From assembly GCA_948144175.1 (NCBI GenBank), contig CANXME010002538.1, positions 620,001 to 684,000 of the forward strand: 64,000 bases of DNA, in the 5' to 3' direction. The position numbers and the translations under genes were made by a program. This document shows, piece after piece, positions 26,791-64,000 of this stretch. Each line of letters opens with the position of its first letter. Within the stretch, counting starts at the first letter, position 1. Below the pieces are notes generated by a model. It saw only the letters and a list, made by a program, of their open reading frames with translations, searched no databases and was not told where the DNA came from. This DNA comes from Closterium sp. NIES-65. Lineage: Eukaryota; Streptophyta; Zygnematophyceae; Desmidiales; Closteriaceae.

Positions 26791-26923
26791 TGTGAAAACT
26801 AGAATGAGAGAATGGATGAACTATGAAAGAGTTGGGTACAAGTACTAACCCTAATTGGGTTGTACCCCATATGGGCTACCCCACTACAGCCAACACAAAA
26901 GCACAAGCTATAATGTTCTGACA
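26791..26923 (-). repeat. 3' LTR of copia C
   Basis: 133 bp, plus-strand edges TGTGAAAACTAG and GTTCTGACA. The adjoining CACCCCCATAGGC is the complement of the family polypurine tract. Confidence 0.93.
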
Positions 26924-27137
26924 CACCCCCATAGGCAAAGTGGGGGACAACAAGGGGTCACAAGACCAGTAAAGCAAAGCAAAGCAAAGCAAGCTCAGGG
27001 TGGATCACAAAGTCACCACACATTCCGAGCACAAGTTCAAGGCCACAAGGCCACTTCACATGCAGGAGTACATATATATATATAGAAGGCTAGACAAGCA
27101 AGAGCAGGTATATATGTATGTAACAGTACAAGCAAGG

Positions 27138-30100: not shown

Positions 30101-32999
30101 GGGGGTCTACCGGGGGGGAACCTGGTACAAGGAGGAGCGGCGGCGGGGGGAGGGACGGAGTGCGGTAGGGGAAGAGGCGGTAGTAGGGGACCGACTCGTC
30201 AAACATGACGTCCTGGGAGGACAGAACACGGCGAGAGGTGGGGTGGTAGAACTACCACCCTGGCGCGTCAGGGGGGAAACCCAGGAAGACGCAAGGAGTA
30301 GCATGAGGGGACAGCTTGTCCGCAGACAAGTCGCGGACAAACGCCCGAGATCCCCAGACACGGAACGCAGACGCATCGCCAACCTTCCTCGTCCACAGCA
30401 AGGCTGGGGAGGTCTCAGGCATGGAGACCCTGGGGTGAAGGTTGATCTGATGCGCCGCGTACCGAACCGCAAACGGCTACAGAAAATGGGGGGCAGCCGC
30501 ATGCATCATGGACGTACGGGCGACGTCCATGACCATGCCAATGCGGCGCTCAGCAATCCCATTTTGCTGTAGAGAGTCGAGAAGCGTGAAGGTCTAGCGG
30601 ATGCCTCATGCACGATAGTAGGCTCGTAGAAGGCTAGAGGAGAAATCTCCGCCTCTGTCAGAGTGCAGACGCAGAACAGGAAAGTTTGAGCCGAAGCTCT
30701 GCCTGAGCTGGAGACGAGCTGCGCGGATCCAGTCGATCAACACCTCAGTGACATCACCCTTGCTGCGCAAGGGGAAGACTGTGGTGTAACACGAGTAGTC
30801 GTCAACCACCAACAGGAAGTAGTGCTCGTGACCCAGTCCACGGACCCGGGCGGGGTCCCACACGTCCAGGTGAAGCGTCTGCAGCGGGCCTCTCATGGAG
30901 GAAACTGGGAGGAGTGAGGGGCAGCACGCTGCCGCCCCTCAACACAGGGGACGCAGATAGGGCCAGGCCCCGGAGGAAGGGGAGGGAGGGACCGGGGAAG
31001 ACCAGAGACAAGGACACGGGAGGCCATGCCTCGGAGACGAAGCAGGGAGGGGTGACCAAGGCGGTGGTGCAAGAGGAGAGTCTCGTGAGACAGGAGGCGA
31101 CACGAGCAGGGGGCAGACTCAGGACCAGACCTGGACGCTGCAGCAAACACCTGACCCAACGCAGCTACTTGACCAGACGCAGGGAAAGGAGGAGACGCAG
31201 TGGTCAGTGTGTACAGGCTCGATGCCGGCCGACGAGTAAACGTGGCCAAGTGTCGGCCCGTCCGAGCGTCCGTGCAGTGGGTCACCCGCTGGCTTGCAGG
31301 AGTGAACTGGTGAACTCCCCCATCCTGTAGGTCAGCACCACTCATCAAGTTCGTAGAGAACGAGGGGAGGTAAAGACCAGATAGGGTGCCAGTGGGAGCC
31401 GTCGGACACGGGAAGACTGTGGAGAAGTGAGTAAGGACAGGACCCCCAGAGGGGTCTGCCATAGAGACTGCAACTTGCCGGCCAAGCACCTGCACCTGAG
31501 GAAACAGACGCACTAGCACCGAGAGCAGCAGCCTCGCTAGCACCTAGAGCAGCAGCCTCACCAGTACCTAGAGCAGCAGTCTCAATGCCCGGGTCGGGCG
31601 GGAAACACCGATAACAGTCACCCTCATCACTAATGGTCACAGCATACATAGCAGCAAGAATAGCATCAAAGTCAAGGTCAAAGATAGCTACTCTCGCCCT
31701 AGACACCTCACCCTAGCAGGGGATCTCTGTGGCCTCCGATAACTGGTGACGCCAAGCCTCCGTCAGGCGGCCAAAGCAGCGCTGGGTGGAGTGCGCACCC
31801 CCGCACTGCTCACCCGCGCGGTCACCGGTGCGTAGGATGTAGATGCACGGACCAGTACCCCCACCCCGCTGGCGTGCAACGTACCACTCACGGAGCTGCT
31901 GAGGGTGGGGGATGTCACGAGTGCGCTGCTGCTGCTGCTGGCGCTGACCACCACCGGAGCTGACCCTCTGCGCAGCGCCACCCCAACCAGCTCCACCTCC
32001 TCCGCCGCTGCCTCCTCCACCGCCGCCACCACCGCCACCTCCGCTCCCACCACCACCGCCGCTCCCACCGCCATCGCCACCGCCGCCTCCGCCTTTACTG
32101 CCGCCACCGACACCTCCACCCCCGCCACCACCCCCACCGCCACCCCCACTCCCTCCACCGCCTCCACCGCCGCCTCCACCGCCCCCGCTAGCTCCTCCAG
32201 CGCCCGTGCCCCCCTTGCCCTTGCCAAGGCGGCGTCTCCCGCTAGGGGTAGACACCGCACCGACCGACTCAAGCCCAACGAGGTCGGCCGCAGCAGCAGA
32301 GGAAACAGAGGGCAAAAGGGGGGAGGGGGAACACCCCTCAAAGATGGGGGTGCGCGGGTCACCACGGGAGGCTCCTACAGCGACTATGCTCTTCTCTGCT
32401 GCTAGGAGGGCCTTCTCGAGGAGGTCAACGGTGAGAGTGGTGGGACAAACTGAGAGGAAGTGGTCCCTGACTATGCGAAGGGAGTCAGGGAGGCGGGTGA
32501 CTATGTAGTAGATAGTGATGTACACGGGGGGGGGGGGGGTTCTTGGCGCAGAACCTTGCAGGAAGCGCAGCGCGGTAGCGAGTGTCACTAGTGCGGAGGT
32601 GCGTAATGAGGTCAGCGACTGTGGGAAAGGCAGCAAGGTCAGGGAAGAGGTACGGTAGCATGAGGCGGCTCAGTGCAGCAGTGGCAGGGGAGGAGTAGCG
32701 CGCAACTACAGCCTCGTATAAGGTCTGAGCACTCTTGTACTGGCTAAAGTGCGCACGCTCAGAGGTAGGCATGTGGCGACGCACAGCAAGACGTGTAGCA
32801 GCATCGCGCGTGGCCCACTGTGAGCAAACAGTGGCATCAGCATCAGCAACAGGGGCAGGAGAGGCACTGGAGGTGAGGTCAAAGAGAGAGAGACCGTCTG
32901 CCCATCGCACTGTAAGAAAAGCTGCAGGTCATCTATCCAGACGTCAAAATCAATGGCCCGATCCTCAGCGTCAAAAGCAAGGACACTAGGGGTAGCCAT
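27138..32999 (-). pseudogene. Copia C gag-pol pseudogene
   Basis: Gag starts MATPSVLAFDAEDRAIDF at 32999 and shifts frame after about 30 residues. The 14-base C tract (32526-32539) shifts it again. The Gly-rich tail and zinc-binding part (EQCGGAHSTQRCF) are in 32636-31713. The protease catalytic stretch TFTLDSGASRSFF is deleted at about 31495. Integrase lies in 31146-30240. The GGAEP-type linker is in 30206-29694. RT runs 29420-28356 and 28145 onward, with YVDD near 28120, and RNase H ends at 27138 (LAYVASEANTADIFTKAL). The RT/RNase H block at 28145-27138 is an uninterrupted 335-codon frame. Confidence 0.9.
32526..32539 (-). repeat. Poly-C (plus-strand poly-G) tract in gag of C
   Basis: Fourteen G on the plus strand at the same gag position as the tracts in G, I and H. 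The following codon is GTG (Val) where the other copies have ATG. Confidence 0.9.
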
Positions 33000-33059
33000 G
33001 ACAGCAGTACACTAGCAGCGCGAACAGTAGGGTGAGGGCAGTGTAGTGACAGAGGCGCT

Positions 33060-33960
33060 GCTCTTACCGGACAGGGCGGCTCGGGCGGCTCGGCTGCAGG
33101 GCGACTCGGCGGCTCGGCAGCTGGGCGGCTCGGCGGCTCGGCTGCTGGGCGGCTCGGCGGCTCGGCTGCTGGGCGGCTCGGCGGCCCGGCTGCTGAGCGG
33201 CTCGGCGGCTGGGCGGCTTGGCTGTTGGGCGGCTCGGCGGTTGGGCGGCTCGGCTGCTGGGCGGCTCGGCTGCTGGGCGGTCCGGCGGGGCCGCAAAGAA
33301 GGCGGCGGAATGGCCGCTGAGAGGGCGGCGTCTGGGGCCGCTGAGATGAGGCGGCAGGGTCGCTGAGAGGAGGCGGCGAGGCCGCTGAGAGGAGGTGGCG
33401 GGGCCGCTGAAAGGGCGGCGGTGGGGCCATGAGAGGGCGGCGACGAGGCCGCTTCCGGGGCGGCGGAAGGGCCGCTGAAAGGAGGTGGCGGGGCCGCTGA
33501 AAGGGCGGCGACGAGGCTCCTGCAGGTGCAGTGGTGGGGCCGCTGAGAAGGGCGGCGACGGGCCGCTGCAAGGGTGGCGACGGGGCCGCTCAAGAGGGCG
33601 GCGACAGGGCCGCTGGAAGGGCGGCTTCGGGGCCATGCAAGGGCGGCGACGGGGCTGCTGGTGAAAGGGCGGCAAGGGGCCGTAGGGGGAGAGCGGCGAC
33701 TGGCCGCGAAGGGCGGCGAATCGAGGCCGTAAGGGCGGCGAATCGGGGCCGCAAGAGGCCGCTAAGGGGCCGTGAGGGCGGCTAGGGCGGCGCGACGCGG
33801 CCGTTAGGGCGGCGCGACGCGGCCGCTAGGGCAGCGCGACGGGGCCGCGAGGGGCTGCTAAGGGGCCTAAGGGGCCGTGAGAGCGGTGCGACGGGTCCGC
33901 TAGGGGTCGTGAGAGGAGAGACCCATGGAGCGCGACTCGGACAGGGACTGAGCGCGCTCC
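33060..33960 (-). repeat. GC-rich minisatellite leader of copia C
   Basis: Tandem GCGGCTCGGCGG/GCTGCTGGGCGGCTC-type units (33080-33300), then GGCGGCGAGGCCGCTGA-type units, between gag and PBS. This is non-coding leader. Its repeat units differ in sequence from those of G, I and H. Confidence 0.8.
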
Positions 33961-34018
33961 GGGCAGGAAAAAAATTCGAATCAGTGGGCCCTAGGAACAG
34001 TTCCCACGAGGGAATCTT

Positions 34019-34028
34019 CTCTATACCA
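34019..34028 (-). promoter_or_regulatory. PBS of copia C
   Basis: The minus strand reads TGGTATAGAGAAGATTCC after the 5' LTR, of which TGGTATAGAG matches the family PBS. Confidence 0.65.
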
Positions 34029-34161
34029 TGTGAAAACTAGAACGAGAGAATGGATGAACTATGAAAGAGTTGGGTACAAGTACTAACCCTAATTGGGTTG
34101 TACCCCATATGGGCTACCCCTCTAAAGCCTACACAAAAGCACAAGCTATAATGTTCTGACA
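34029..34161 (-). repeat. 5' LTR of copia C
   Basis: 133 bp, four differences from the 3' LTR, followed by target duplication TATGT. Confidence 0.93.
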
Positions 34162-46514: not shown

Positions 46515-46569
<55 letters not shown>

Positions 46570-46604
46570 ATTGGTGGGTGAACAATCCAACACTTGGTGA
46601 ATAC

Positions 46605-46649
<45 letters not shown>

Positions 46650-49600
46650 AACGTCGCTATGAACGCTTGGCTGCCACAAGCCAATTATCCCTGTGGTAAC
46701 TTTTTTGACACCTCTACCTTCAAGCTCCGAAGAGCTAAAGGATCGATAGGCCCCGCTTTCACGGCTTGTATTCGTACTGAAAATCAAAGTCAAGCGAGCT
46801 TTGCCCTTTTGATCCACACGAGATTTCTGTTCTCATTGAGCTCGCCTTAGGACACCCACGTTATCGTTTAACGGATGTGCCGCCCCAGCCAAACTCCCCA
46901 CCTGACAATGTCATCCGCCTGGATCGGCCGAAGCCTTAAGGCAAGAATCAGGGGCAATGCCCCGCCTCCACCTCACGGATTAAGTAAAATAACGTCAAGA
47001 GTAGTGGTATTTCACCGGTTAAGTGAGGAGGAGGGACTATATGAGGAGAAGCTGCTGGCAGGTTAAGCTGCTAGCTCAAAGGCGGCTGCTTCCTGGAACC
47101 TTCCTCAGTCCTCCAACTCCCCCTTCCACACTCCTTGACAACCCTAGCACCTCTCCCCCAGCTCCCCCACACCCTCACACCCACCCCCCCAAGCGGCAGC
47201 TGCAGCAGTGGGAGAGAAAGGAGGAGGAGGGGAAGGGGATCACACACACCCATCACCACCATACCTGCCACCCCATAGCCTCCGTGCCACGGCTGCACGC
47301 GCAGCAAGGAGACGAAGAAGGGGGGAGGGGGGGGGGGGGGGGGCAGGGGCGACAGAGCAGAACAAAGCGCACAAGGGCGCGAGCAGCAGCAGGGCGCACG
47401 AGGGCGCGGGCAGCAGCAGAGCGCACGAGGGCGCAGGCAGAGCAGAGCGCACAAGGGCGCGGGCAGCAGCAGGGCGCACGAGGGCGCGGGCAGCAGCAGA
47501 GCGCACGAGGGCGCAGGCAGAGCAGAGCGCAAAAGGGCGCGGGCAGCAGCAGGGCGCACGAGGGCGCGGGCAGCACCAGAGCGCACGAGGGCGCAGGCAA
47601 AGGCACGAGCAGCAACGGGCGGCAACAGGCAGCACAGGAACGGGCAGCAACGGGCGGCAACGGGCAGCGCATGCACGGGCAGCAACGGGCGGCAACGGGC
47701 GGCACAGGCACGGGCAGCAACGGGCGGCAACAGGCAGCACAGGCACGGGCAGCAACAGGTGGCAACAGGCAGCACAGGCACTGGCAGCAACGGGCAGCAC
47801 AGGCACGGGCAGCAACGGGCGGCAACGGGCAGCACAGGCACGGGCAGCAAAGGGCGGCAACAGGCAGCACAGGCACGGGCAGCAACAGGCAGCAACAGGC
47901 GGCAACGGGCAGCACAGGCATGGGCAGCAACGGGCGGCAACGGGCAGCAACGGGCGGCAACGGGCAGCACAGGCACGGGCAGCAACGGGCGGCAACGGGC
48001 AGCACAGGCACGGGCAGCAACGGGCGGCAACAGGCGGCACAGGCACGGGCAGCAATGGGCGGCAACGGGCGGCACAGGCACGGGCAGCAACGGGCGGCAA
48101 CAGGCAGCACAGGCACGGGCAGCAACGGGCGGCAACAGGCAGCACAGGCACTGGCAGCAACGGGCGGCAACAGGCAGCACAGGCACAGGCAGCAGCAGGC
48201 AGCAACAGGCGGCAACGGGCAGCACAGGCACGGGCAGCCATACCGAGACCAGGAGCGGCGGTGCATACAGCTGTGGGGTCGGCGCCGTGGGCTGCTCCTG
48301 GGGCGGCTGCTCCAGGCGCTGCTGCTGCTGGGGCGGCCGCTGCAGTGGCGGCGGCTCCACGGGCTGCTGCTGCTGGGGCGGCTGCTCCAGGCGCTGCTGC
48401 TGCTGGGGCGGCTGCTCCAGAGGCTGCTGCTGCTGGGGCGGCTGCTCCAGGCGCTGCTGCTGATGGGGCGGCTGCTCCAGACGCTGCTGCTGCTGGGGCG
48501 GCCGCTGCAGTGGTGGCAGCTCCAAAGGCTGCTGCTATTTGGGCGGCGGCTCCAGGGGCTGCTGCGCTTGGGGCGGCTGCTCTAAGCGCTGCTACTGCTG
48601 GGGCGGCGGCTCTAGAGGCTGCTGCTGCTGGGGCGGCTGCTCCAGGCGCTGCTGCTGATGGGGCGGCTGCTCCAGACGCTGCTGCTGCTGGGGCGGCCGC
48701 TGTAGTGGCGGCAGCTCCAGAGGCTGCTGCTGTTTGGGCGGCGGCTCCAGAGGCTGCTGCTGCTGGGGCGGCCGCTGCAGTGGCGGCAGCTCCAGAGGCT
48801 GCTGCTGTTTGGGCGGCGGCTCCAGAGGCTGCTGCTGCTGGGGCGGCTGCTCCAGGCGCTGGTGCTGAGGTCCAGGGGCGGCGCTGGTGCAAGGTAGGCC
48901 CAGGCTCGGCTGCAACGCTGGCGCGGGCGCGGGTGAGGCAGAGGCGGTGGCCAGGGGGGAGGCGAGGAGCAGAGACGGCGCCCAAGGAGTGCCGCTACGA
49001 GCACGGGCGACGCCCCAGGGGCGCCGCGACGAGTAGGGGCGGCGTCCAGGGGGCGCCGCGACAAGCAGTGGCGTCGCGACGAGCAAGGCGACGCCTTGCG
49101 GGTCCTGCAGGAGCGTCGCGACGAGCAGGAGTGGTGATGCCCGGGTCCCGCAGGTGCGCCGCGACGAGCAGGAGCGGCGCCTCGCAGGGCGCCGCAAAGT
49201 GGAGGGTACGGGCGGGCAAATCAGGCCCGCCCGTGGACGTGAGGCAGGCGCGCAGGCGGCGTGAGGGCAGGCCACGCGCGGGGCAGGAAGACGCCGCGCG
49301 CCCAGGGCGCACGGCAGGCAGAAGCCCGCCGTGCGCCCCGAGCACACGGCGGGCAGAAAATCGCCGTGCGCAATACGCCGCGCGCGCGAGGCGCACGACA
49401 AGACGATAGGCAGCGGAAGCAGGAAAGCAGTAGGAACGTACCTGCTCTGAATACCATGTTAATATACTAGGCATAGGTTGGCTTAGGAGCCATAGTTAAG
49501 GAGGTTCTTAGTAGTTCGAGTTTTAGGGTTGAGGAGAATGTCGTGAAAGTTGAGAAAGGGAAAATGGGGGCTTCACTATAGGTTTGCAAGAACATATAGC

Positions 49601-50916: not shown

Positions 50917-50921
50917 AGTTT

Positions 50922-51060
50922 TCTCAGAATCCCAACCACTAGACCATTGGGATAAAAGGGCTTGTTTCAGTAGCGGGTCAGTGCGCCCATAACCCCCCAG
51001 GCAATCGTGCCTGTAACCCTTCCCTAGGATCGATCGGGGATCACCAGTGGACCTCTGACA
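50922..51060 (-). repeat. 3' LTR of the TRIM
   Basis: 139 bp, identical to 51131-51269 by my reading. Confidence 0.9.
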
Positions 51061-51087
51061 CCCCCCCGCACTGGGATGCCCGAAGTG

Positions 51088-51161
51088 CATACACCGGGAT
51101 TCGAACCCGAGACCTTCGCTCTGGATACCATCTCAGAATCCCAACCACTAGACCATTGGGA
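51088..51161 (-). promoter_or_regulatory. tRNA-Glu-like Pol III promoter in the TRIM
   Basis: The minus strand reads TGGTCTAGTGGTTGGGATTC, nearly identical to the D arm of eukaryotic tRNA-Glu. A 5-bp stem pair TTCTG/CAGAG and a T arm CGGGTTCGAATCCCG follow. The A box is at 51145-51155 and the B box GGTTCGAATCC at 51097-51107. The acceptor stem does not pair and the anticodon loop is about 10 nt, so it is not a working tRNA. It would suit internal Pol III initiation (inference). Confidence 0.75.
51118..51130 (-). promoter_or_regulatory. PBS of the TRIM
   Basis: TGGTATCCAGAGC on the minus strand, one base different from TGGTATTCAGAGC at 49456 and lying directly at the LTR edge. Confidence 0.75.
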
Positions 51162-51269
51162 TAAAAGGGCTTGTTTCAGTAGCGGGTCAGTGCGCCCATA
51201 ACCCCCCAGGCAATCGTGCCTGTAACCCTTCCCTAGGATCGATCGGGGATCACCAGTGGACCTCTGACA
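51131..51269 (-). repeat. 5' LTR of the TRIM
   Basis: 139 bp, from TGTCAGAGG to CTGAGA on the minus strand, flanked by target duplication AGTTT. Confidence 0.9.
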
Positions 51270-51274
51270 AGTTT

Positions 51275-51693: not shown

Positions 51694-51825
51694 TGTCAGA
51701 ACATATAGCTTACCTGTTTGTGTAGGCTACAGTGGGGTATCCCATAAGGGGTACAACACAATTAGGTTTCCTATTTGTACTCATTCTTGACTTAGTCAAT
51801 TCATTCCTCTTCTCACTGTTTCACA
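51694..51825 (+). repeat. 5' LTR of copia I
   Basis: 132 bp, TGTCAGAACATA to GTTTCACA, identical to the 3' LTR. Confidence 0.96.
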
Positions 51826-51840
51826 TGGTATAGAGCTAGG
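51826..51840 (+). promoter_or_regulatory. PBS of copia I
   Basis: TGGTATAGAGCTAGG directly after the LTR. Confidence 0.8.
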
Positions 51841-51899
51841 TCCCTCCAGAACCGATTTTTTGGGCCCACCGAAGCGCGCCCAGAGGCGCGAATTTTTTT

Positions 51900-52570
51900 A
51901 GCGACCCCTCGAGTCGCCCTCTCCCCTGCGGCCTCCCCGCCACTCTGTCGCGGCCCCGCCCTGACCCTTACGCGGCCACGCCGCCTGCTCCTTACGCGGC
52001 CCCGCCCCCGGCCCTTACGCGGCCCCGCGCCGGCTCCTACGCGGCCCTTACGCGACCCCGCGCCGGCCCCTTACGCGGCCCTTACGCGGCCACGCCGCCG
52101 GCTCTCACGCGGCCCCGCAGCTGGCTTCTACGAGGCCCCGTCCCGGCTCCTACGCGGCCCCGTCCCCGGCTCCTACTCGGCCCCGCGCCTGCCCTTACGC
52201 GGCCTCGCCGCCGGCTCCATCGCGGCCCTGCCCCGGCTTCTACGCGGCCCCGTCCCCAGCCCCTTACGCGGCCCCGCCGCAGGCTCCTACGCGGCCCCGC
52301 CGCCGGCTCCTACTCGGCCCCGCGCCGGCCCTTACGCGGCCTCGCCGCCGGCTCCATCGCGGCCCCGCCCCTGCTCCGACGCGGCCCTGCCGCCGACTTC
52401 TACTCGGCCCTGCGCCGGCCCCTACGCGGCTCGGCCGCCGACTCCAACGCGGCCCTGCGCCGGCTCCTACGCGGCCCTGCAGCCGGCTCCAACCCGGCCC
52501 TGCCCCGGCTCCTACGCCGGCCCTAACGCGGCCCCGCCCTGGTTCTCTCACGCGACCCCGCCGCCTCACC
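51900..52570 (+). repeat. GC-rich minisatellite leader of copia I
   Basis: Repeats based on GCGGCCCCGC and GGCTCCTACGCGGCC fill the leader up to about 52570, followed by GAGCCGCC units to about 52700. It is untranslated by position, upstream of the gag ATG at 52828. Confidence 0.82.
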
Positions 52571-52827
52571 TGCACCCGAGCCGCCGGTAGCCGAGCCGCC
52601 CTGCACCCGAGCCGCCCTGCAGCCGAGCCGCCCGGGAGCCGAGCCGCCCTGCACCCGAGCCGCCCTGCCGCCGAGCCGCCCGGGAGCCGAGCCGCTGTAC
52701 ACACGAGCCGCCCGGTCGCCGTTCTGCTTGTCTGTCGAGCTGCACGGCCTGCCCTGCCTGGTGAGCACAGTCCGTCTGTCACTGCGCCCTCTTTCCCTAC
52801 TGCTTGCACTGCTTCACTGTAGTCGTC

Positions 52828-53340
52828 ATGGCCACCCCTAGTGTCCTAGCCTTTGACGCCGAGGGTCGCGCCATTGATTTTGAGGTCTGGCTGGACGACC
52901 TGCAGCTTTTCTTACAGTGCGACAGAGCTGACAGCCTTTCTCTCTTTGACCTCACCTCTGGCGCCTCTCCTGCTCCTGCTGCCGATGCTGATCCCACTGT
53001 CCGCTCTCAGTGGGCCACCCGCGATGCTGCTGCACGTCTTGCTGTGCGTCGCCACCTCCCTACCTCTGAGCGTGCACACTTTAGTCAGTACAAGAGTGCT
53101 CAGACCTTGTACGACGCTGTAGTTGCGCGCTACTCCTCCCCTGCCACTGCTGCACTGAGCCGTCTCATGCTTCCCTACCTCTTTCCTGACCTCTCTGCCT
53201 TTCCCACTGTCGCTGACCTCATTACGCACCTCCGCACTAGTGACACTCGCTACCGCGCCGCCCTTCCTGCTGAGTTCTGCGCTAAGAACCCCCCCCCCCA
53301 TGTACATCACTCTCTACTACGTAGTCGCGCGCCTCCCTGA
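52828..53340 (+). CDS. Gag N-terminal part of copia I
   Basis: Starts MATPSVLAFDAEGRAIDFEV in a good context (gtcATGgcc); copies C and H share the start. It contains a gag helical region (SQWATRDAAARLAVRRHLP, LMLPYLFPDL). After NPPP, encoded by an 11-C tract (53289-53299), the frame runs out at 53340, while the next gag segment continues in the +1-shifted frame at 53300. In copy H the same junction is in frame, so gag was originally continuous. A programmed frameshift is possible but less likely than C-tract slippage. Confidence 0.85.
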   Translation: MATPSVLAFDAEGRAIDFEVWLDDLQLFLQCDRADSLSLFDLTSGASPAPAADADPTVRSQWATRDAAARLAVRRHLPTSERAHFSQYKSAQTLYDAVVARYSSPATAALSRLMLPYLFPDLSAFPTVADLITHLRTSDTRYRAALPAEFCAKNPPPHVHHSLLRSRAPP

Positions 53341-56300
53341 CTCCCTCCGTGTAGTCAGGGACCACTTTCTCGCAGTCTGTCCCACCACTCTCACCGTCGA
53401 CCTCCTCGAGAAGGCCCTCCTCGCAGCGGAGAAGAGCATAGTCGCTGTAGGTGCCTCTCGTGGTGACCCTCGCACCCCCATCTTTGAGGGGTGCTCTCCT
53501 TCCCCCTTGCTGCCCTCTGTTGCCTCTGCTGCTGCGGCCGACCTGCTTGGTCTTGAGTCGGTCGGCGCGGCGTCCGCCCCTAGTGGGAGACGTCGCTCTA
53601 GCAAGGGCAAGGGGGGCAAGGGCACGGGCGGAGCTGGAGGGGGCGGTGGCGGTGGCGGCGGAGGCGGCGGAGGGAGTGGGGGTGGCGGCGGGAGTAGTGG
53701 TGGTGGTGGTGGTGGTGGTGGCAGCAGCGGCGGAGACGGTGGTGGTGGTGGCAGCGGTGGTGGTGGAGGCAGCGGCGGGGGAGGAGGCGGTGGAGGTGGA
53801 GGCGGTGGAGGCGCCGGCGGTGGAGGCGGTAGTGGTGGAGGAGGTGGAGCTAGTCGTGGGGGTACCCAGCAGCGGAGCGGCGGTGGTGGTGCCCAGCGCT
53901 CGCAGCGGCAGCAGCAGCAGCGTTCGCGGGACATCCCTCCGCCTCAGCAGCTTCGTGAGTGGTACACTGCGCGTCAGAGGGGTGGGGGTACTGGTCCCTG
54001 CGCCTACGTTCTTCGCTCCGGCGACCGCGCGGGTGAGCAGTGTGGGGGTGCCCACTCCACCCAGCGCTGCTTTGGCCGCCTGACGGACGCTTGGCGTCAG
54101 CAGTTCCCCGGGGCTAGTGAGATCCCTCGCTGGGATGAGCTCCTTAGGGCTGGTGTAGCGATCTTTGATCTTGATTTTGATGCTATCCTTTCTGCTATGT
54201 ATGCTGTGACTTATAGTGAGGAGAATGAGGGTTACCGGTGTTTCCAGCCCGACCCGGGCATTGGTACTGCTGCGCTAGGTACTTGTGAGGCTGCTGCTCT
54301 AGGTGCCAGTGAGTCTGCGCTCTCAGGTACTAGTGAGACTGCGCTCTCAGGTGCTGGTGAGACTGCGCTCTCAGGTACTGCGTCGCCCTCGTCCTCCCTC
54401 ACTTTCACACTTGACTCTGGGGCTTCTCGCTCCTTCTTTCGAGACCGCACTACCCTTACGCCTCTTGGCCGGCCGGTTGCGGTCTCCCTTGCTGACCCCT
54501 CTGGGGGTCCTGTCCTGTCTCACTTCTCCACTGTCCTCCCGTGTCCGGCTGCCCCTTCGGGCACCCTGTCTGGTCTGTACCTTCCCTCGTTCTCTACGAA
54601 CTTGGTGAGTGGTGCGGACCTACAGGATGCGGGGGTTCACCAGTTCACTCCTGCGAGGCGACGGGTGACCCACTGCACGGACGCAGACACAGGCCGACAC
54701 CTGGCCACCTTTTCGCGTCGGCCGGGGTCGAGTCTCTACACCCTGACCACTTCGTCTCCTCCTGTCCCTGCGTCTGGTCGGGTCGCTGCGTCAGGTCAGG
54801 TGTTTGCTGCTGCTTCCCGGTCAGGTCCTGAGTCTGCCCCCTGTTCTTGTCGCCTCCTGTCTCACGAGACTCTCCTGTGGCACCACCGTCTTGGCCACCC
54901 CTCCTTGCCCCGTCTTCGGAGCATGGCTTCCCGTGTCCTTGTCTCTGGTCTTCCCCAGTCTCTCCCTCCTCTCCCCTCCGGGCCAGGACCTTCCTGTGTC
55001 CCCTGTGTCGAGGGTCGCCTCCGGGCTACTCCTCACTCCTCCCACTTCCCCCCGACAGAGGCTCCCCTGCAGACGCTTCACATGGATGTGTGGGGCCCAG
55101 CCCCCGTCCGTGGGCAGGGTTACGAGCGCTACTTCCTGTTGGTGGTTGACGACTACTCGCGTTACACCACAGTCCTCCCCTTGCGCAGCAAGGGTGCGGT
55201 CACTGAGGTGCTGATCGACTGGATCCGCGAGGCTCGTCTCCAGCTCAGGAAGAGCTTCGGCTCGGACTTTCCTGTTCTGCGTCTGCACTCTGACAGAGGC
55301 GGAGAGTTCTCTTCTAGCCTTCTGCGAGACTACTGTCGTGCACGGGGGATCCGCCAGACCTTCACGCTTCCGGACTCACCACAGCAAAATGGGATTGCTG
55401 AGCGCCGCATTGGCATGGTCATGGATGTCGCTCGTACGTCCATGATGCATGCGGCTGCCCCCCATTTTCTGTGGCCGTTTGCTGTGAGGTACGCGGCGCA
55501 TCAGCTCAACCTTCACCCCCGGGTCTCTCGGCCTGCGATGTCCCCAGTCTTGCTGTGGACAGGGAAGGTTGGCGATGCGTCTGTGTTCCGTGTCTGGGGA
55601 TCTCGGGCGTTTGTCCGCGACTTGTCTGCGGACAAGCTGTCCCCTCGTGCTGCTCCCTGTGTCTTCCTTGGCTTCCCCACTGACGCCCCAGGGTGGCAGT
55701 TTTACCACCCCTCCTCTCGTCGTGTTCTGTCCTCCCAGGACGTCACGTTCGATGAGTCAGTCCCCTTCTACCGTCTCTTCCCCTACCGCACTCCTTCCCT
55801 CCCCCCTCCCCCGGACTTCCTTGTGCCGGTTCCCCCCCCGGTCGACCCCCTCCCCCCTCAGGTTCCTGCCCCCTCAGGTGTGTCCCAGGTAGACGCCGTT
55901 GACCCGGTCGAGGTTACTGGTGACTCTGGTGCTGCTGCGGGTGCTGAGCCTGGGGGTGCTGAGCCTGGGGGTGCTGACTCTGGGGGTGCTGACCCTGAGG
56001 GTGCGGGGCCTGGGGGTGCTACTGCTGGGGGTACTGGGCCTGGGGGTGCTACTGCGGTGGGTGCGGAGCCTGGGGGTACTGAGCCGGGGGGTGCTGTGCC
56101 TGGAGGTGCTGAGTCTGGGGGTGCTGAGTCGGGAGCTGCTGAGCCTGAGGGTACTGAGCTGGGAGCTGCTGAGCCTGGGGGTGCTGCGCCTAGAGTTGCT
56201 GAGCCTGGGGTTTCTCCTGCTGCTGCGTCTTGCCGGGAGCCCCTCTCTCCACCGGAGCTGCGCGAGTGGTTCGCTCGCCGCTGGAGGCGTGCTGCTGAGT

Positions 56301-58771
56301 CTGGAGGTGCTGCTGGAGCTGGAGCTGGAGCTTCTTCGACCGTCGAGGGTGCGGGTGCTGCCGGTCCCGGAGCTGCTGGACCTATTGGTCCTCCTGGAGC
56401 TGGAGCTGCTGAGGGCGTTGGTGCTGAGCCTGCTGCTGTTGGACCTGCCGCTGGAGGTGTGGGTGGCGCCGGTGCTGTCGCTGAGGGTGCTGGTGCTGTC
56501 CCAGCTGAGTCTGGAGCTGCCGCGCGGCCTCGGCCGTACTTCGTTCCGCTCCTGCGGCAGGTTCTTGGTCTTTCTCCTCCAGTAGAGGGTCCACCGCCTG
56601 TCCAGTCGCAGTCCCTACTGGAGCCTTCCTCTCCGCTGCCTGCTCCCTCTCCTTACACTGGTCCTACTGGAGGTCTTGCTGAGCGTCGTGAGCCTGCGTC
56701 TCGTCCCGCGTCGCCTGTTCGTGCTGCTCGCGCTAGTGGTCGCAGTTCGCGTCAGCGTCCTCCTCCTGTCCCTGGCACGCACCGGATGTCTCTGCGTCCG
56801 TCCACTGCTCCTCTGCGTGCCCCTTTGCCTTCTCCTCCTGAGTCCTCTCTTCCTGCGCTTGCGGACCCTGAGTCAGACTCTCTTCGCGCTGCCAGTCCTA
56901 CTGTCACGCGTCTGCTTGCTACTGTCGTCACTGACCCCTCGTTTGAGTCCACTGCTGCGTCTGCTCTTGTCGCTGAGCTCGTTGACTTTGCTGCTCGCTG
57001 TCGTCTCGACTACGCTGCTAGTCTTGTTGCTGAGTCTGTGTCTGGCTGTCCTCCGTCCGTCGGGGGTGAGTGTGCTCTTGGCACGGACGTCCTAGAGGAC
57101 AGGCAGGAGGAGTTACAGTGTCTAGCGGCTGCTTCACCTCATCTCGCGTCTGTACTGCTTGCCCCTGAGGGAGACCCGGATGCACTAGACATCCCGACTC
57201 CGCGTTCTTACGCGGAGGCCGTAGAGGGTCCCTACTCCTCTCAGTGGCAGGCAGCTATGGATGCAGAGATGGCTTCCTGGAAGTCCACAGGCACCTACGT
57301 TGACGCAGTTCCCCCTCCTGGGGCGAACATCGTCAGTGGCATGTGGATCTTCAGGGTGAAGCGACCGCCGGGCTCTCCACCTGTCTTCAAGGCACGGTAC
57401 GTTGCTCGTGGCTTCAGTCAGCGGCAGGGAGTTGACTACTTTCAGACCTTCTCTCCCACCCCGAAGATGACCACTCTTCGGGTGCTGCTGCACATAGCCG
57501 CTCAGCGCGACTACGAGCTTCACTCTCTCGACTTCAGCACTGCGTTCCTGCAGGGTAGCCTGCACGAGGAGATCTGGCTGCGCCGTCCGCCTGGCTTCAC
57601 TGGGACTTTCCCTCCTGGCACCCAGTGGAGCCTCCGACGGCCAGTCTACGGTCTCCGCCAGGCACCGCGTGAGTGGCACGACACACTGAGGACTACGCTT
57701 GCGGCTCTTGGGTTTGCTCCTTCTACTGCTGACCCGTCGCTGTTTCTTCGCACCGACACTTCCCTGCCGCCGTTCTACATCCTCGTGTACGTCGACGACT
57801 TGGTCTTTGCCACAGCGGACACTGCTGGACTCGCCTACGTGAAGTCCGAGCTGGTGAAGAGACACACGTGCACAGACCTGGGTGAACTGCGCAGCTACCT
57901 TGGCTTGCAGATCACTCGGGACAGAGCACGCCGCACCATCACCTTGACTCAGTCACACATGGTGCAGCAGGTCCTTCAGCGCTTTGGCTTCACGTACTCC
58001 TCGCCTCAGGCCACTCCTCTGCCTACTCGCCACTCACTCTCAGCTCTGCCTTCGGATGAGTCCGTAGAGTCGAGTGGTCCGTATGCAGAGCTTGTTGGCT
58101 GCCTCATGTACCTGATGACCTGCACACGACCCGACCTCGCATACCCTCTGAGCATCCTTGCACGCTATGTTGCTCCTGGGAGACACCGACCAGAGCACAT
58201 GGCTGCAGCGAAGAGGGTATTGCGCTACCTGTGCAGTACGTCAGGCATGGGGCTAGTGCTTGGAGGGCGCAGTCCAGTGGTCCTTACAGGCCACGCGGAC
58301 GCTTCTTGGGCTGACGACCAGGCTACGCAGCGGTCGTCGCAGGGTTACACCTTCAGCCTTGGTTCCGGCTCTGTCTCGTGGCGGTCTACTCGCTCGTCTT
58401 CGGTTCTCGGCTCCAGTTGTGAGGCTGAGATCTACGCCGGGGCCATGGCTGCACAGGAGCTTCGCTGGCTCACCTACCTGCTGACTGACCTTGGAGAGCC
58501 GCCTCGTTCTCCTCCAGTGCTGTACGTAGACAACAAGGCCATGCTGGCCTTGTGTCGAGAGCAGCGCTTGGAGCACAGAACGAAGCACATTGCTCTCCGC
58601 TACTTCCTTGCTCGTGAGCTGCAGCAGCGTGGTCAGTTGCGACTTGCGTACGTGGCCTCTGAGGCCAACACTGCTGATGTGTTCACCAAGGCACTGGCGC
58701 CTTGTGACCATCAGCGCTTTTGTACCCAGCTGGGTCTTGTGCCTGTCTTGCCTCACTTGCTCTCTTCTTGA
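53300..58771 (+). CDS. Gag C-terminus and Pol polyprotein of copia I
   Basis: 1823 codons counted from MYITLYYVV. A Gly-rich stretch (53630-53860) is followed by a zinc-binding motif with EQCGGAHSTQRCF. Protease is TFTLDSGASRSFF near residue 372. The pre-integrase HHRLGHPSL region and CVPCVEG lead to integrase from about residue 593 (VVDDYSRYTTV, LHSDRGGEFSS). A GGAEP-type repeat linker spans 55920-56230. RT follows (ARYVARGFSQRQGVDYF, YVDDLVFATAD near residue 1496). RNase H has DASWADDQATQRSSQGYTF, SSSVLGSSCEAEIYAGAMAA, LYVDNKAMLAL and AYVASEANTADVFTKAL. All catalytic motifs look intact. The true start lies upstream in gag. Confidence 0.93.
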   Translation: MYITLYYVVARLPDSLRVVRDHFLAVCPTTLTVDLLEKALLAAEKSIVAVGASRGDPRTPIFEGCSPSPLLPSVASAAAADLLGLESVGAASAPSGRRRSSKGKGGKGTGGAGGGGGGGGGGGGGSGGGGGSSGGGGGGGGSSGGDGGGGGSGGGGGSGGGGGGGGGGGGGAGGGGGSGGGGGASRGGTQQRSGGGGAQRSQRQQQQRSRDIPPPQQLREWYTARQRGGGTGPCAYVLRSGDRAGEQCGGAHSTQRCFGRLTDAWRQQFPGASEIPRWDELLRAGVAIFDLDFDAILSAMYAVTYSEENEGYRCFQPDPGIGTAALGTCEAAALGASESALSGTSETALSGAGETALSGTASPSSSLTFTLDSGASRSFFRDRTTLTPLGRPVAVSLADPSGGPVLSHFSTVLPCPAAPSGTLSGLYLPSFSTNLVSGADLQDAGVHQFTPARRRVTHCTDADTGRHLATFSRRPGSSLYTLTTSSPPVPASGRVAASGQVFAAASRSGPESAPCSCRLLSHETLLWHHRLGHPSLPRLRSMASRVLVSGLPQSLPPLPSGPGPSCVPCVEGRLRATPHSSHFPPTEAPLQTLHMDVWGPAPVRGQGYERYFLLVVDDYSRYTTVLPLRSKGAVTEVLIDWIREARLQLRKSFGSDFPVLRLHSDRGGEFSSSLLRDYCRARGIRQTFTLPDSPQQNGIAERRIGMVMDVARTSMMHAAAPHFLWPFAVRYAAHQLNLHPRVSRPAMSPVLLWTGKVGDASVFRVWGSRAFVRDLSADKLSPRAAPCVFLGFPTDAPGWQFYHPSSRRVLSSQDVTFDESVPFYRLFPYRTPSLPPPPDFLVPVPPPVDPLPPQVPAPSGVSQVDAVDPVEVTGDSGAAAGAEPGGAEPGGADSGGADPEGAGPGGATAGGTGPGGATAVGAEPGGTEPGGAVPGGAESGGAESGAAEPEGTELGAAEPGGAAPRVAEPGVSPAAASCREPLSPPELREWFARRWRRAAESGGAAGAGAGASSTVEGAGAAGPGAAGPIGPPGAGAAEGVGAEPAAVGPAAGGVGGAGAVAEGAGAVPAESGAAARPRPYFVPLLRQVLGLSPPVEGPPPVQSQSLLEPSSPLPAPSPYTGPTGGLAERREPASRPASPVRAARASGRSSRQRPPPVPGTHRMSLRPSTAPLRAPLPSPPESSLPALADPESDSLRAASPTVTRLLATVVTDPSFESTAASALVAELVDFAARCRLDYAASLVAESVSGCPPSVGGECALGTDVLEDRQEELQCLAAASPHLASVLLAPEGDPDALDIPTPRSYAEAVEGPYSSQWQAAMDAEMASWKSTGTYVDAVPPPGANIVSGMWIFRVKRPPGSPPVFKARYVARGFSQRQGVDYFQTFSPTPKMTTLRVLLHIAAQRDYELHSLDFSTAFLQGSLHEEIWLRRPPGFTGTFPPGTQWSLRRPVYGLRQAPREWHDTLRTTLAALGFAPSTADPSLFLRTDTSLPPFYILVYVDDLVFATADTAGLAYVKSELVKRHTCTDLGELRSYLGLQITRDRARRTITLTQSHMVQQVLQRFGFTYSSPQATPLPTRHSLSALPSDESVESSGPYAELVGCLMYLMTCTRPDLAYPLSILARYVAPGRHRPEHMAAAKRVLRYLCSTSGMGLVLGGRSPVVLTGHADASWADDQATQRSSQGYTFSLGSGSVSWRSTRSSSVLGSSCEAEIYAGAMAAQELRWLTYLLTDLGEPPRSPPVLYVDNKAMLALCREQRLEHRTKHIALRYFLARELQQRGQLRLAYVASEANTADVFTKALAPCDHQRFCTQLGLVPVLPHLLSS

Positions 58772-58975
58772 CTTTACTTGTACTGTGACATATATATACC
58801 TGCTCTTGCTTGTCTTGCTTTATATATATGTCTGTACTCTTGCATGTGAACTGGCCTTTGGCCTTGCTCTTGTGCTCGGACTGTGTGGTGACTTTGTGAT
58901 CCACCCCGAGCTTGCTTTGCTTTGCTTGACTGGTCTTGTGACCTCTTGTTCTCCCCCACTTTGCCTATGGGGGTG

Positions 58976-59107
58976 TGTCAGAACATATAGCTTACCTGTT
59001 TGTGTAGGCTACAGTGGGGTATCCCATAAGGGGTACAACACAATTAGGTTTCCTATTTGTACTCATTCTTGACTTAGTCAATTCATTCCTCTTCTCACTG
59101 TTTCACA
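58976..59107 (+). repeat. 3' LTR of copia I
   Basis: 132 bp, preceded by polypurine tract TATGGGGGTG and followed by target duplication TAGTA. Confidence 0.96.
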
Positions 59108-60410: not shown

Positions 60411-61885
60411 ATGGCCACCCCCAGTGTCATGGCCTTTGACGCTGAGGGTCGCGCCATTGACTTTGCGGTCTAGGTCGAGGACCTGCAGCTGTACTTGCAG
60501 TGCGATTCAGTAGATGACATCTCTCTCTTTGACTTTGCCTCTGGCGCTGTCCCTGCCCCTCCTGCTGATGCTGACCCCACTGTTTGCTCCAAGTGGGCCA
60601 CACGCGATGCTGCTGCACGTCTTGCTGTGCGTCGCCACCTCCCTTCCTCCGAGCGTGCCCACTTTAGTCAGTGCAAGACCGCTCAGGCCTTGTACGACGC
60701 TGTAGTTGCGCGCTACTCCTCCCTTTCCACTGCTACACTGAGCCGCCTCATGCTACCGTACCTCTTCCCTGACCTTGCTGCCTTTCCCACAGTCACTGAC
60801 CTCTTTACCCACCTTCGCGCTAGTGACACTCGCTACCGAGCTGCGCTTCCTGCTGCCTTCCTCGCCGAAAACCCCCCTCCCATGTACATCACCCTCTACT
60901 TTCTAGTCACCCGTCTCCCTGAGTCCCTTCGTGCTGTTAGGGACCAGTTTCTCTCTGTCTGTCCCACCACCCTCACTGTCGACCTCCTTGAGAAGTCCCT
61001 GCTAGCGGCCGAGAAGAGCATAGTCGCTGTAGGGGCCTCTCGTGGTGACCCGCGCACCCCCATCTTTGAGGGGTGTTCTCCTTCCCCCCTGCTACCCTCT
61101 GTCGCCTCTGCTGCTGCGGCCGACCTCGTTGGTTTAGAGTCGGTCGGTGCGGCGTCTGCCCCCAGCGGTAGGCGCCGCTCTGGCAGGAGCAAGGGGGGCA
61201 AGGGAGCGGGTGGAGCTAGCGGGGGCGGTGGCGGAGGAGGTGGAGGCGGCGGGGGGAGTGGGGGTGGCGGTGGGGGTGAAGGAGGGGGTGGAGGTCCTGG
61301 TGGCGGCGGTGGAGGCGGAGGTGGCGGCGGAGGTGGTGGCGGAGGAGGCAGTGGGAGCGGCGAGGGCGAGGGTAATTGATACCGGTGTTTCCTGCCCGAC
61401 CCTGGCATTGGTACTGCTCCGTTAGGTGCCAGTGAGGATGCTGCTCTAGGTGCCAATGCGTCTGTGCTCTCAGGTGCTAGTGAGTCTGCCCTCTCAGGTA
61501 CTGTGTCGGCTTCTGCCTCCCACACCTTCACCCTTGACTCTGGGGCGTCTCGCTCCTTCTTTCGGGACCGCACGACTCTCACGCCGCTTAGTCGGCCTGT
61601 TGCGGTGTCCCTGGCTGACCCCTCTGGGGGTCCTGTCCTGTCTCGTTTCTCCACAGTCCTCCAATGTCCGGCGGCTCCCTCTGGCACCCTGACTGGTCTT
61701 TACCTCCCCTCGTTCTCTACGAACCTGGTGAGTGGTGCTGACCTACAGGATGTGGGTGTCCACCAGTTCACTCCTGCTCGTCAGCGGGTGACACACTGCA
61801 CAGAGGCTAGCACAGGTTGCCACCTAGCTACGTTTACACGTCAGCCAGGGTCGAGCCTGTACACACTGACCACTGCTTCTCCTCT
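60411..61885 (+). pseudogene. Gag and protease of copia H
   Basis: Starts MATPSVMAFDAEGRAIDF, then a TAG replaces the Trp codon at about 60471. The rest of gag is open to 61376, with the NPPPMYITLY junction in frame (CCCCCCTCCC at 60872-60881) and a Gly-rich tail. A TGA at 61377-61379 sits exactly at a deletion joint; compared with I, about 120 residues including the zinc-binding part are missing. YRCFLPDPG and protease TFTLDSGASRSFF follow, ending in LTTASP where the inversion begins. Confidence 0.88.
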
Positions 61886-61886
61886 C

Positions 61887-63274
61887 GGTGCTGAGTCTGC
61901 ACCCTCAGGCAAAGCACCTCCAGGCGGAGCACCCCCAGTCTCAGCACCCCCAGGCTCAGCACCCCCAGGCCCAGCACCCCTAGGCTCAGCACCCCCAAAC
62001 TCAGTACCCCCAGGCTCAACACCCCCAGGCTCAGCACCCACAGGCTCAGCACCTCCAGACTTCGCACCCCCAGGCTCAGCACCCCCAAGCGTAGCACCCC
62101 CAGTCCCAGCACCCCCAGGCTCAGCTCCCGCAGCAGCACCTGAGTCACCAGTGACCTTGACAGGCTCGACCGCGTCTACCTGGGACACACCTGAAGGGGC
62201 AGGACCCTGAGGGGGGAGGGGGTCTACCGGGGGGGGACCTAGTACCAAGAAGAGCGGGGGCGGGGGGAGGGACGGAGTGCGGTAGGGGAAGAGGCGGTAG
62301 TAGGGTACTGACTCGTCGAACGTGACGTCCTGGGAGGACAGAACACGTCGAGAGGTGGGGTGGTAGAACTGCCACCCAGGGGCGTCGGGGGGGAACCTCA
62401 GGAAGACGCAGGGAGCAGCGCGAGGGGACAGCTTGTCCGCAGACAAGTCGCGGACAAACGCCCGAGATCCCCAGACCCGGAACGCCGACGCATCGCCAAC
62501 CTTCCCCGTCCACAGCAGGGCTGGGGAGGTCTCCGGCCTGGAGACCCTGGGGTGGAGGTTGATCTGATGCGCCGCGTACCTGACCGCAAACGGCCACAGA
62601 AAATGGGGGGCAGCCGCATGCATCATAGACGTACGAGCAACGTCCATGACCATGCCAATGCGGCGCTCAGCAATCCCATTTTGCTGCGGTGAGTCCGGAA
62701 GCGTGAAGGTCTGGCGGATGCCTCGCGCACGACAGAAGGCACACAGAAGGCGAGAGGAGAACTCTCCGCCTCTGTCCGAGTGCAGACGCAACACAGGAAA
62801 GTCCGAGCCAAAGCTCTGCCTGAGCTGGAGACGAGCTTCGCGGATCCAGTCGATCAGCACCTCAGTGACATCACCCTTGCTGCGCAAGGGGAAGACTGTG
62901 GTGTAACGCGAGTAGTCGTCAACCACCAACAGGAAGTAGCGCTCGTGACCGAGTCCACGGACGCGGGCAGGGCCCCACACGTCCATGTGAAGTGTCTGCA
63001 ACGGAGCCTCTGTCGGAGGAAACTGGGAGGAGTGAGGGGCAGCACGCTGGCGCCCCTCGACACAGGGGACACAGGCAAGGCCAGGGCCCTGAGGAAGGGG
63101 AGGGAGGGACCGGGGGAGACCAGACACAAGAAGACGGGAGGCCATGCCTCTAAGCCGAAGCAGAGAGGGGTGGCCAAGGCGGTGGTGCCAGAGGAGAGTC
63201 TCGTGAGACAGACGGCGACACGAACAGGGGGCAGACTCAGGACCAGACCTGGACGCTGCAGCAAACACTTGACC
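61887..63274 (-). pseudogene. Inverted integrase block of copia H
   Basis: The minus strand carries SGQVFAAASRSGPESAPC, the pre-integrase and integrase domains (VVDDYSRYTTVFPL, LHSDRGGEFSS, PQQNGIAERRIGM) and the GGAEP-type linker, all in one open frame. In I, G and C the same block lies in the same direction as gag. The joints fall between LTTASP and SGQVF on one side, and within the linker on the other. Confidence 0.88.
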
Positions 63275-64000
63275 AGACAGGTTCTTCGTCTGGAGGTTCT
63301 CCGCCTGGAGGTGCTTCGTCTCGCCGAGAGCCACTCTCCCCACAGGAGCTACGTGAGTGGTTTGCCCGGCGCTGGAGGCGTGCTGCTGGTGCTGGAGGTT
63401 CTTCGGCTGCAGAGGGTGCTGCTGCCGCGCGTCCCGGAGGTGCTCGTGCTGTGGGTGCTGGAGCTGCTGGGCCTGAGGGTTCTCTTGGAGCTGGTGCTGC
63501 TGAGGGTGTTGGCGCTGAGACTACTGCTGGCGGTCCGACTGCCAGTGCTCCTGGTGCTGCTAGGGGTTCTGGAGCGTGTACGTCGACGACTTGGTCTTTG
63601 CCACAGCTGACACTGCTGGACTCGCCTACGTGAAGTCCGAGCTGCAGAAGAGACACACGTGCACTGACCTGGGTGAACTGCGCAGCTACCTTGGCTTGCA
63701 GATCACCCGGGACAGAGCACGCCGCACCATTACCCTGACTCAGTCACACATGGTGCAGCAGGTCCTTCAGCGCTTCGGCTTCACGTACTCCTCGCCTCAG
63801 GCCACTCCTCTGTCTACTCGCCACTCGCTCTCAGCTCTGCCTTCACATGAGTCCGTAGAGTCGAGTGGTCCGTATGCAGAGCTTGTTGGCTGCCTCATGT
63901 ACCTGATGACCTGCACACGACCTTACCTTGCATACCCTCTTAGCATTCTCGCACGCTATGTTGCTCCTGGGAGACACCGACCAGAGCATATGGCTGCAGC
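63275..64000 (+). pseudogene. Linker and RT fragment of copia H
   Basis: The plus strand resumes with the end of the linker (REPLSPQELREWFARRWRRA), then jumps at about 63575 to RT at VYVDDLVFATADTAGLAYVK, so the N-terminal half of RT is deleted. RT continues to the window edge (LVGCLMYLMTCTRPYLAYPL). Confidence 0.88.

Follow-up and report, generated by a model that had tools for sequence, protein, structure and literature searches.

A tRNA-like promoter split by the LTR edge in a miniature LTR retroelement of Closterium that is likely moved by Copia

A complete TRIM in the genome of Closterium sp. NIES-65 carries a tRNA-like promoter that is split by the LTR edge: its A box belongs to the terminal part of the LTR and its B box to the centre, and the PBS separates the two. 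We consider it probable (roughly 0.7) that this TRIM is moved by Copia, that its split tRNA-like promoter drives Pol III, that initiator tRNA-Met acts as its primer and that the anticodon arm of this tRNA possibly forms a bridge. The element would thus be a non-coding LTR retroelement that Copia retrotransposons in its own genome mobilise in trans. It lies at positions 50922-51269 of the window, by which we mean the whole stretch of 64,000 nucleotides that was analysed.

The element comprises 348 bp (LTR, 139 bp; centre, 70 bp; LTR, 139 bp), and its direct repeats, 139 nt each, are 100% identical. Its sense strand is the minus strand, on which the order from position 51269 to 50922 is LTR, PBS, B box, G7 and LTR, with AGTTT at both flanks (Table 1). 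It has the two LTRs, the small total length (below 1000 bp) and the absence of coding capacity that define a TRIM by size. The original prediction had described a 348-bp TRIM with identical 139-bp repeats and a 70-bp centre, and both the coordinates and the LTR identity confirm this; the AGTTT duplication, the PBS after one LTR and the G7 tract before the other were also found at the places that it gave. It had further set an A box and a B box astride the LTR edge, about 40 nt apart. Their placement was correct, in that the A box is present in the LTRs and the B box in the centre only, but the spacing in the window element is 48 nt, start to start. Because the A box TGGTCTAGTGG stops 14 nt short of the LTR end, it is present in both LTRs.

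Table 1. Positions in the window of the parts of the TRIM and of the complete Copia element near it
Feature	Position	Strand	Basis
Target site duplication AGTTT, 3' LTR side	50917..50921	.	exact copy at other flank
3' LTR, 139 bp	50922..51060	minus	repeat alignment
A box TGGTCTAGTGG, 3' LTR copy	50936-50946	minus	sequence
TTTT in 3' LTR, candidate Pol III terminator	50954..50957	minus	matching run in 32/34 sampled units; run was in probe
GGGTTATGGGCGCAC in 3' LTR, candidate second primer-tRNA contact	50981..50995	minus	14/15 complementary to host initiator tRNA-Met anticodon arm
G7 polypurine tract (PPT), directly before 3' LTR	51061..51067	minus	sequence
Centre, 70 bp, without notable reading frame	51061..51130	minus	sequence
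B box GGTTCGAATCC, present once, centre only	51097..51107	minus	sequence
PBS TGGTATCCAGAGC, directly after 5' LTR	51118..51130	minus	sequence
5' LTR, 139 bp	51131..51269	minus	repeat alignment
A box TGGTCTAGTGG at end of 5' LTR	51145..51155	minus	sequence
TTTT just upstream of A box, 5' LTR	51163..51166	minus	sequence
GGGTTATGGGCGCAC copy in 5' LTR	51190-51204	minus	LTR identity
Target site duplication AGTTT, 5' LTR side	51270..51274	.	exact copy at other flank
Complete Copia near TRIM, separate insertion	51694..59107	plus	132-bp identical LTRs, TSD TAGTA, RVT_2/rve/gag_pre-integrs frame

Is the window element one of a family, or a single oddity? The 874-Mb assembly that contains the window was searched with a 358-base query, which gave at least 43 matches, 41 of those at 99-100% identity and near full length. 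We examined 40 close loci, namely the window's own place (L001) and L009-L047. Exact 5-bp target site duplications (TSDs) flank all 40 close copies, window included; 39 were read by script, amounting to 38 different sequences, and one by eye (L038, which the script had misparsed and which has GGGGG at both flanks). The proposal that other copies would have LTRs and differing target duplications was thereby borne out. The LTR pairs are identical in 33 of these 40 copies, with L038 counted as non-identical, and the window subfamily thus looks recently active. Among the close copies, L040 has three LTRs in tandem within one pair of TSDs. In whole counts over the assembly, the PBS junction of the window subfamily occurs 304 times and the A-box 30-mer of the LTR 10,045 times (each with at most two mismatches), and the B-box 30-mer of the centre occurs 5,421 times (at most three mismatches); the reversed-pattern controls for these three probes gave 0 matches each.

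The wider family was sampled in 40 regions, the first in contig order among the first 100 places of the A-box 30-mer, which together contain 79 A-box LTRs. From these regions 34 LTR-centre-LTR units could be parsed, with centres of either 66-70 or 93-95 bp. Exact TSDs were found in 21 of the 34 units and a match of at least 4/5 in 24; of the remaining ten, six have an LTR in common with the unit next to them, and the 5' end of the other four could not be parsed. Seven LTRs appeared to be solo, and five of them are true solos, all five with exact TSDs. The two that were dropped are one that follows a PPT (L100, a composite whose outermost flanks both read GCAGG) and one that proved to be the 3' LTR of a TRIM interrupted by a further insertion (L080). 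The centre of the latter TRIM holds, at L080 1121-1344, a solo Copia-like LTR of 224 bp with TGCAC on both sides. The common LTR end in the family is TTCTGACA and the common PBS is TGGTATCAGAGC; the window form is a variant with TTCTGAGA at the LTR end and one extra C in the PBS.

In view of its small size and tRNA-like boxes, the element might have been taken for a SINE, or else for a chance tandem duplication at one place. A SINE has no LTRs, ends in a 3' tail and, through target-primed reverse transcription, has variable TSDs, whereas here there are paired LTRs, a PBS, a PPT, and 5-bp TSDs that abut the LTR ends directly, with no tail; the solo LTRs have TSDs as well. Nor is there a large excess of B-box copies, as the LTR and centre counts (10,045 versus 5,421) indicate. 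The copy counts, TSDs and solo LTRs lead us to reject both a SINE and a lone tandem copy, which we regard as practically eliminated. Because there are thousands of related copies, 40 close ones among them with exact TSDs, the window element is a TRIM, and it is so on every structural feature tested.

The spacing from A box to B box, start to start, is 44 in 22 of the 34 units, 47 in nine, 45 in two and 48 in one, and in host tRNA-Glu genes it is 44, 44 and 45 (three fetched of 91 tRNA-Glu-like places). On contigs C879, C2084 and C1788, tRNA-Glu-like sites recur every ~10.2-10.3 kb, as if each copy of a tandem repeat of that length contained one. Contigs such as C113, C155, C1956 and C2210 hold organelle-like tRNA genes many times and in both orientations, and this repetition on separate contigs suggests either duplicates in the assembly or concatemers of organelle DNA. 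The best PDB matches of the plastid rbcL point to a streptophyte alga, and plastid-like contigs carry an atpB-like and a chlI-like frame.

A strict B box is present in 26 of the 34 centres, versus 4 of the 34 stretches just downstream of the unit's 3' LTR. The block from A box through PBS to B box is identical between the two subtypes except for a small indel, and parts of U3 and of the centre differ between them. When the common junction was aligned to three tRNA-Glu loci, the scores were 36, 32 and 39, and the best of 500 shuffles scored 35, 34 and 28; one of the three loci thus stays below its best shuffle in this global alignment (32 versus 34). In gapped local matching to sense tRNA-Glu, only 2 of 1000 shuffles did as well as the LTR, 4 as well as the long centre and 3 as well as the short centre; for the reverse-strand control, the corresponding numbers were 731, 131 and 136. 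The label tRNA-Glu-like given in the original prediction is fair for the D-arm part, but the T-arm part is a generic T arm. The position of the anticodon arm is occupied by the LTR end and the PBS. There a hairpin is possible in the common form, with a stem of 5 bp and a 7-nt loop containing the LTR/PBS edge; this stem is absent from the best fold of the window form, and the A-to-B stretch has no folding advantage over shuffled sequences, of which 30 and 165 in 200 were at least as good. A tRNA scanner had been suggested as a check of the tRNA-like region; ARAGORN called no tRNA in the window, nor in the common form of the junction. A tRNA gene at the LTR-centre junction was rejected on this result.

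In 32 of the 34 units a run of four T residues is found shortly before the A box, a count that is partly the product of selection because this run lay in the search probe. No other such run is present in 31 of the 34 units, and the number of T4 runs per unit is about equal to that obtained by shuffling.

Do these boxes act as a promoter? Because their spacing is near that of host tRNA-Glu genes and is kept in both subtypes, and because the T4 run lies upstream of the A box, the anatomy of the element supports the idea that the tRNA-like boxes may act as a Pol III promoter. An ordinary Copia TRIM transcribed by Pol II, whose boxes are relics of a former SINE or tRNA and have lost their promoter function, is a serious though unlikely alternative. 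It is favoured by the fact that the case for Pol III use is drawn from sequence, by the lack of an ARAGORN call and by other LTR stretches that are as well conserved as the boxes. The constancy of the A-PBS-B block between subtypes in which parts of U3 and the centre vary, and a spacing that stays within 44-48 in all 34 units, argue against it. A second alternative is that the B-box-like stretch is merely a primer-tRNA contact, that is, a complement of the T arm of the initiator tRNA, and no part of a promoter. The B box is nearly palindromic and does match that complement weakly; yet a match of this quality was reached by 640 and 431 of 1000 shuffles, as against the few that reached the sense tRNA-Glu match, and the A box would be left unexplained. 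We rejected this explanation, which we consider very improbable, because the T-arm complement match is not above shuffles.

The host genome suggests a candidate for the primer. An initiator tRNA-Met-like sequence occurs at 32 genome places, and its 3' half, read at one of them (L132), ends in GCTCTGATA; the complement of this end with CCA added is the common PBS TGGTATCAGAGC, from which the window PBS TGGTATCCAGAGC differs by one extra C. Elsewhere in the window, TGGTATTCAGAGC at 49444-49456 on the minus strand directly follows ATTAACA and may be the PBS of another LTR element.

The LTR segment GGGTTATGGGCGCAC is complementary at 14 of 15 positions to the anticodon arm of the host initiator tRNA-Met, a match that was noticed before it was tested. 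Its complementarity score was reached by 2 (long subtype) and 1 (short subtype) of 1000 shuffles, and the sense-strand control by 708 and 705. Of 34 LTRs, 33 carry the core 10-mer without a mismatch. In conservation the 15-mer ranks 3 of 125 for the short subtype; for the long subtype its rank is 29 of 128, and there the twelve best-conserved 15-mers shown all fall in the probe region. The sequence match suggests that GGGTTATGGGCGCAC and the PBS together might form a Ty3-like bipartite primer site. According to the accessible part of PMC5371799, Ty3 has a 5'-3' bipartite PBS for initiator tRNA-Met, which contacts both the 5' PBS and a part of U3 close to the RNA 3' end. The far contacts of Ty3 are described there as made by the T and D arms, whereas the contact predicted here would be made by the anticodon arm.

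We propose the following life cycle. Pol III would be driven only from a 5' LTR that is joined to the centre, with a transcript that begins a short way before the 5' LTR copy of the A box and stops at the TTTT at the equivalent place in the 3' LTR. The RNA product would then correspond to roughly a single unit of 209 nt, or 234 nt in the long form, with a terminal redundancy of only perhaps 5-12 nt as estimated from tRNA genes in general, and it would contain the GGGTTATGGGCGCAC segment near its 3' end only. Initiator tRNA-Met, which matches the PBS by sequence, would prime there, and its anticodon arm may pair with the LTR segment near the RNA 3' end. Such a tRNA bridge, like that of Ty3, may hold both RNA ends together for the first strand transfer. 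We also put forward a bolder version, which we think rather unlikely: the element would be a Pol III LTR parasite of Copia with silent solo and 3' LTRs, and one initiator tRNA, with its acceptor end on the PBS and its anticodon arm on the RNA 3' end, would close the RNA into a ring. PBS-to-PBS joining in shared particles would then give rise to TRIM-TRIM and TRIM-Copia concatemers.

Evidence on the helper comes from chimeric insertions. In four of the 40 sampled regions (L082/L122, L083, L095 and L112/L121) a TRIM LTR runs into a Copia-like centre, the Copia label of L083, L095 and L122 being a likeness by eye and not a Pfam assignment. The clearest case, L112/L121 on contig C31, reads Copia LTR, TRIM centre, TRIM LTR, Copia centre and Copia LTR; its outer LTRs are identical at 128 of 129 positions, GCCGA stands at both flanks, and its 1,713-aa frame contains RVT_2, rve, gag_pre-integrs and SH3_retrovirus. 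It is the only Copia chimera read at both flanks with an exact TSD. The flanks match at 4/5 both in the L122 composite (ATATG/ATTTG) and in L104, a dimer of the two TRIM subtypes (GTTGG/GTCGG).

Throughout the genome, junctions of a TRIM LTR with the Copia-type PBS TGGTATAGAGC number 43 when an exact match is required and 88 when one mismatch is allowed; 17 of the 88 read TATCGAGC and may be plain TRIMs. The 43 exact junctions are not a count of events, as some chimeras may copy earlier chimeras. Six of these were fetched, and five have the order Copia-like LTR, TRIM centre, TRIM LTR and Copia-like centre; the five include both TRIM subtypes and several Copia families, and the sixth (L128) has unrelated DNA directly before the TRIM LTR. 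The TRIM units are placed exactly between the Copia LTR and the Copia PBS. The Copia partner in L126 has a PBS region that closely resembles that of the window Copia at 51694-59107. This window Copia, which is separated from the TRIM by about 420 bp, has the gag-pol frame, the domain order and the 5-bp TSD of Copia, and so does the C31 chimera. Similarity between TRIM and Copia LTRs was set aside as a link, because its local score of 16 lies within the range of shuffles (mean 14.3, maximum 23). The window also holds, on the minus strand, a second Copia at 26791-34161 (~133-bp LTR repeats, 97% alike; RVT_2 split over two frames; ACATA at both flanks by eye) and a Copia fragment at 61844-63520 with rve, SH3_retrovirus and gag_pre-integrs.

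Given the GCCGA flanks of the C31 insertion and the single difference in 129 positions between its outer LTRs, Copia is likely the helper that moves the TRIM in trans, as the chimeric insertions indicate. From the exact joining at the LTR/PBS edge we infer strand transfer between PBS ends in one particle. Similar insertions, with three LTRs, two centres and one 5-bp TSD pair, are described in the accessible part of Sabot and Schulman (2007, PMC1950507) for Triticeae and other grasses and explained by template switching in shared particles; the partners there are of one family, whereas here a TRIM unit sits inside a Copia with an unrelated LTR. The fusions could instead have arisen by recombination between integrated copies rather than in shared particles, and would then be uninformative on the helper. 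Most of them were read at one side only, the L122 flanks match at 4/5 only, and unequal crossing-over can yield tandem homodimers. This origin nevertheless seems to us quite unlikely, given that TRIM/Copia LTR similarity is not above shuffles, that the junctions fall exactly at the LTR/PBS edge in several Copia families, and that the C31 insertion has one TSD pair and near-identical outer LTRs, as do insertions classed as complex by the criteria in the accessible part of PMC1950507.

The idea that a tRNA-derived counterpart of Cassandra would be new does not hold in general. The Helenus TRIMs (TRIMp3; Kojima 2024, PMC10886601) precede it: in the accessible part of that paper they are tRNA-type TRIMs with a tRNA-like A box and B box, a PBS and a PPT, and they are described with both boxes inside the LTR. 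The same text has fungal and plant families making 5-bp TSDs, links the fungal families to Copia and lists a Selaginella family, known here by its description and without sequence comparison, with 120-bp LTRs and an 85-bp centre. It also states that Pol III transcription of Helenus was not demonstrated, and it infers the Helenus helper from PBS similarity and one shared centre; in the present case, the helper is indicated by chimeric insertions. The Closterium family shares with Helenus the presence of tRNA-like boxes in a TRIM, 44-48 apart in 34 of 34 units as read from sequence, but only its A box is in the LTR; its B box lies in the centre, with the PBS between the boxes. The element is therefore outside Helenus as defined, although it would function in the same way. 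In the part of PMC10886601 available, no Helenus element is described with boxes divided by the LTR edge. Among literature titles, Helenus was the sole tRNA-type TRIM recognised and none with split A and B boxes was found, in a search that lay mostly outside subscription papers and preprints.

Cassandra, the 5S rRNA TRIMs of land plants, likewise has a Pol III-type promoter and forms tandem arrays (PMC7215508, accessible part), and its helper is stated as unknown in the available text of PMC7215508 and PMC10886601. The 5S-derived promoter of Cassandra lies wholly within the LTR, whereas the promoter here is tRNA-like and split; Rfam detected no 5S rRNA in the window at the gathering score, which sets the element apart from Cassandra. 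A large-subunit rRNA fragment is present in the window at 46526-46999 on the minus strand; among the Rfam models, that of the archaeal LSU fits it best (279 bits).

Since tRNA-type TRIMs as such have already been published, the variant feature of this large family of about 10,000 LTRs is the split, with the PBS between the A and B boxes. The split promoter is an example of how one tRNA-like sequence can accommodate promoter boxes together with a PBS. If it works as proposed, only full elements would be transcribed, and the first strand transfer would have to cope with a very short repeat. The chimeric insertions, for their part, provide a more direct record of a TRIM with Pol III-type boxes meeting Copia in the same particle.
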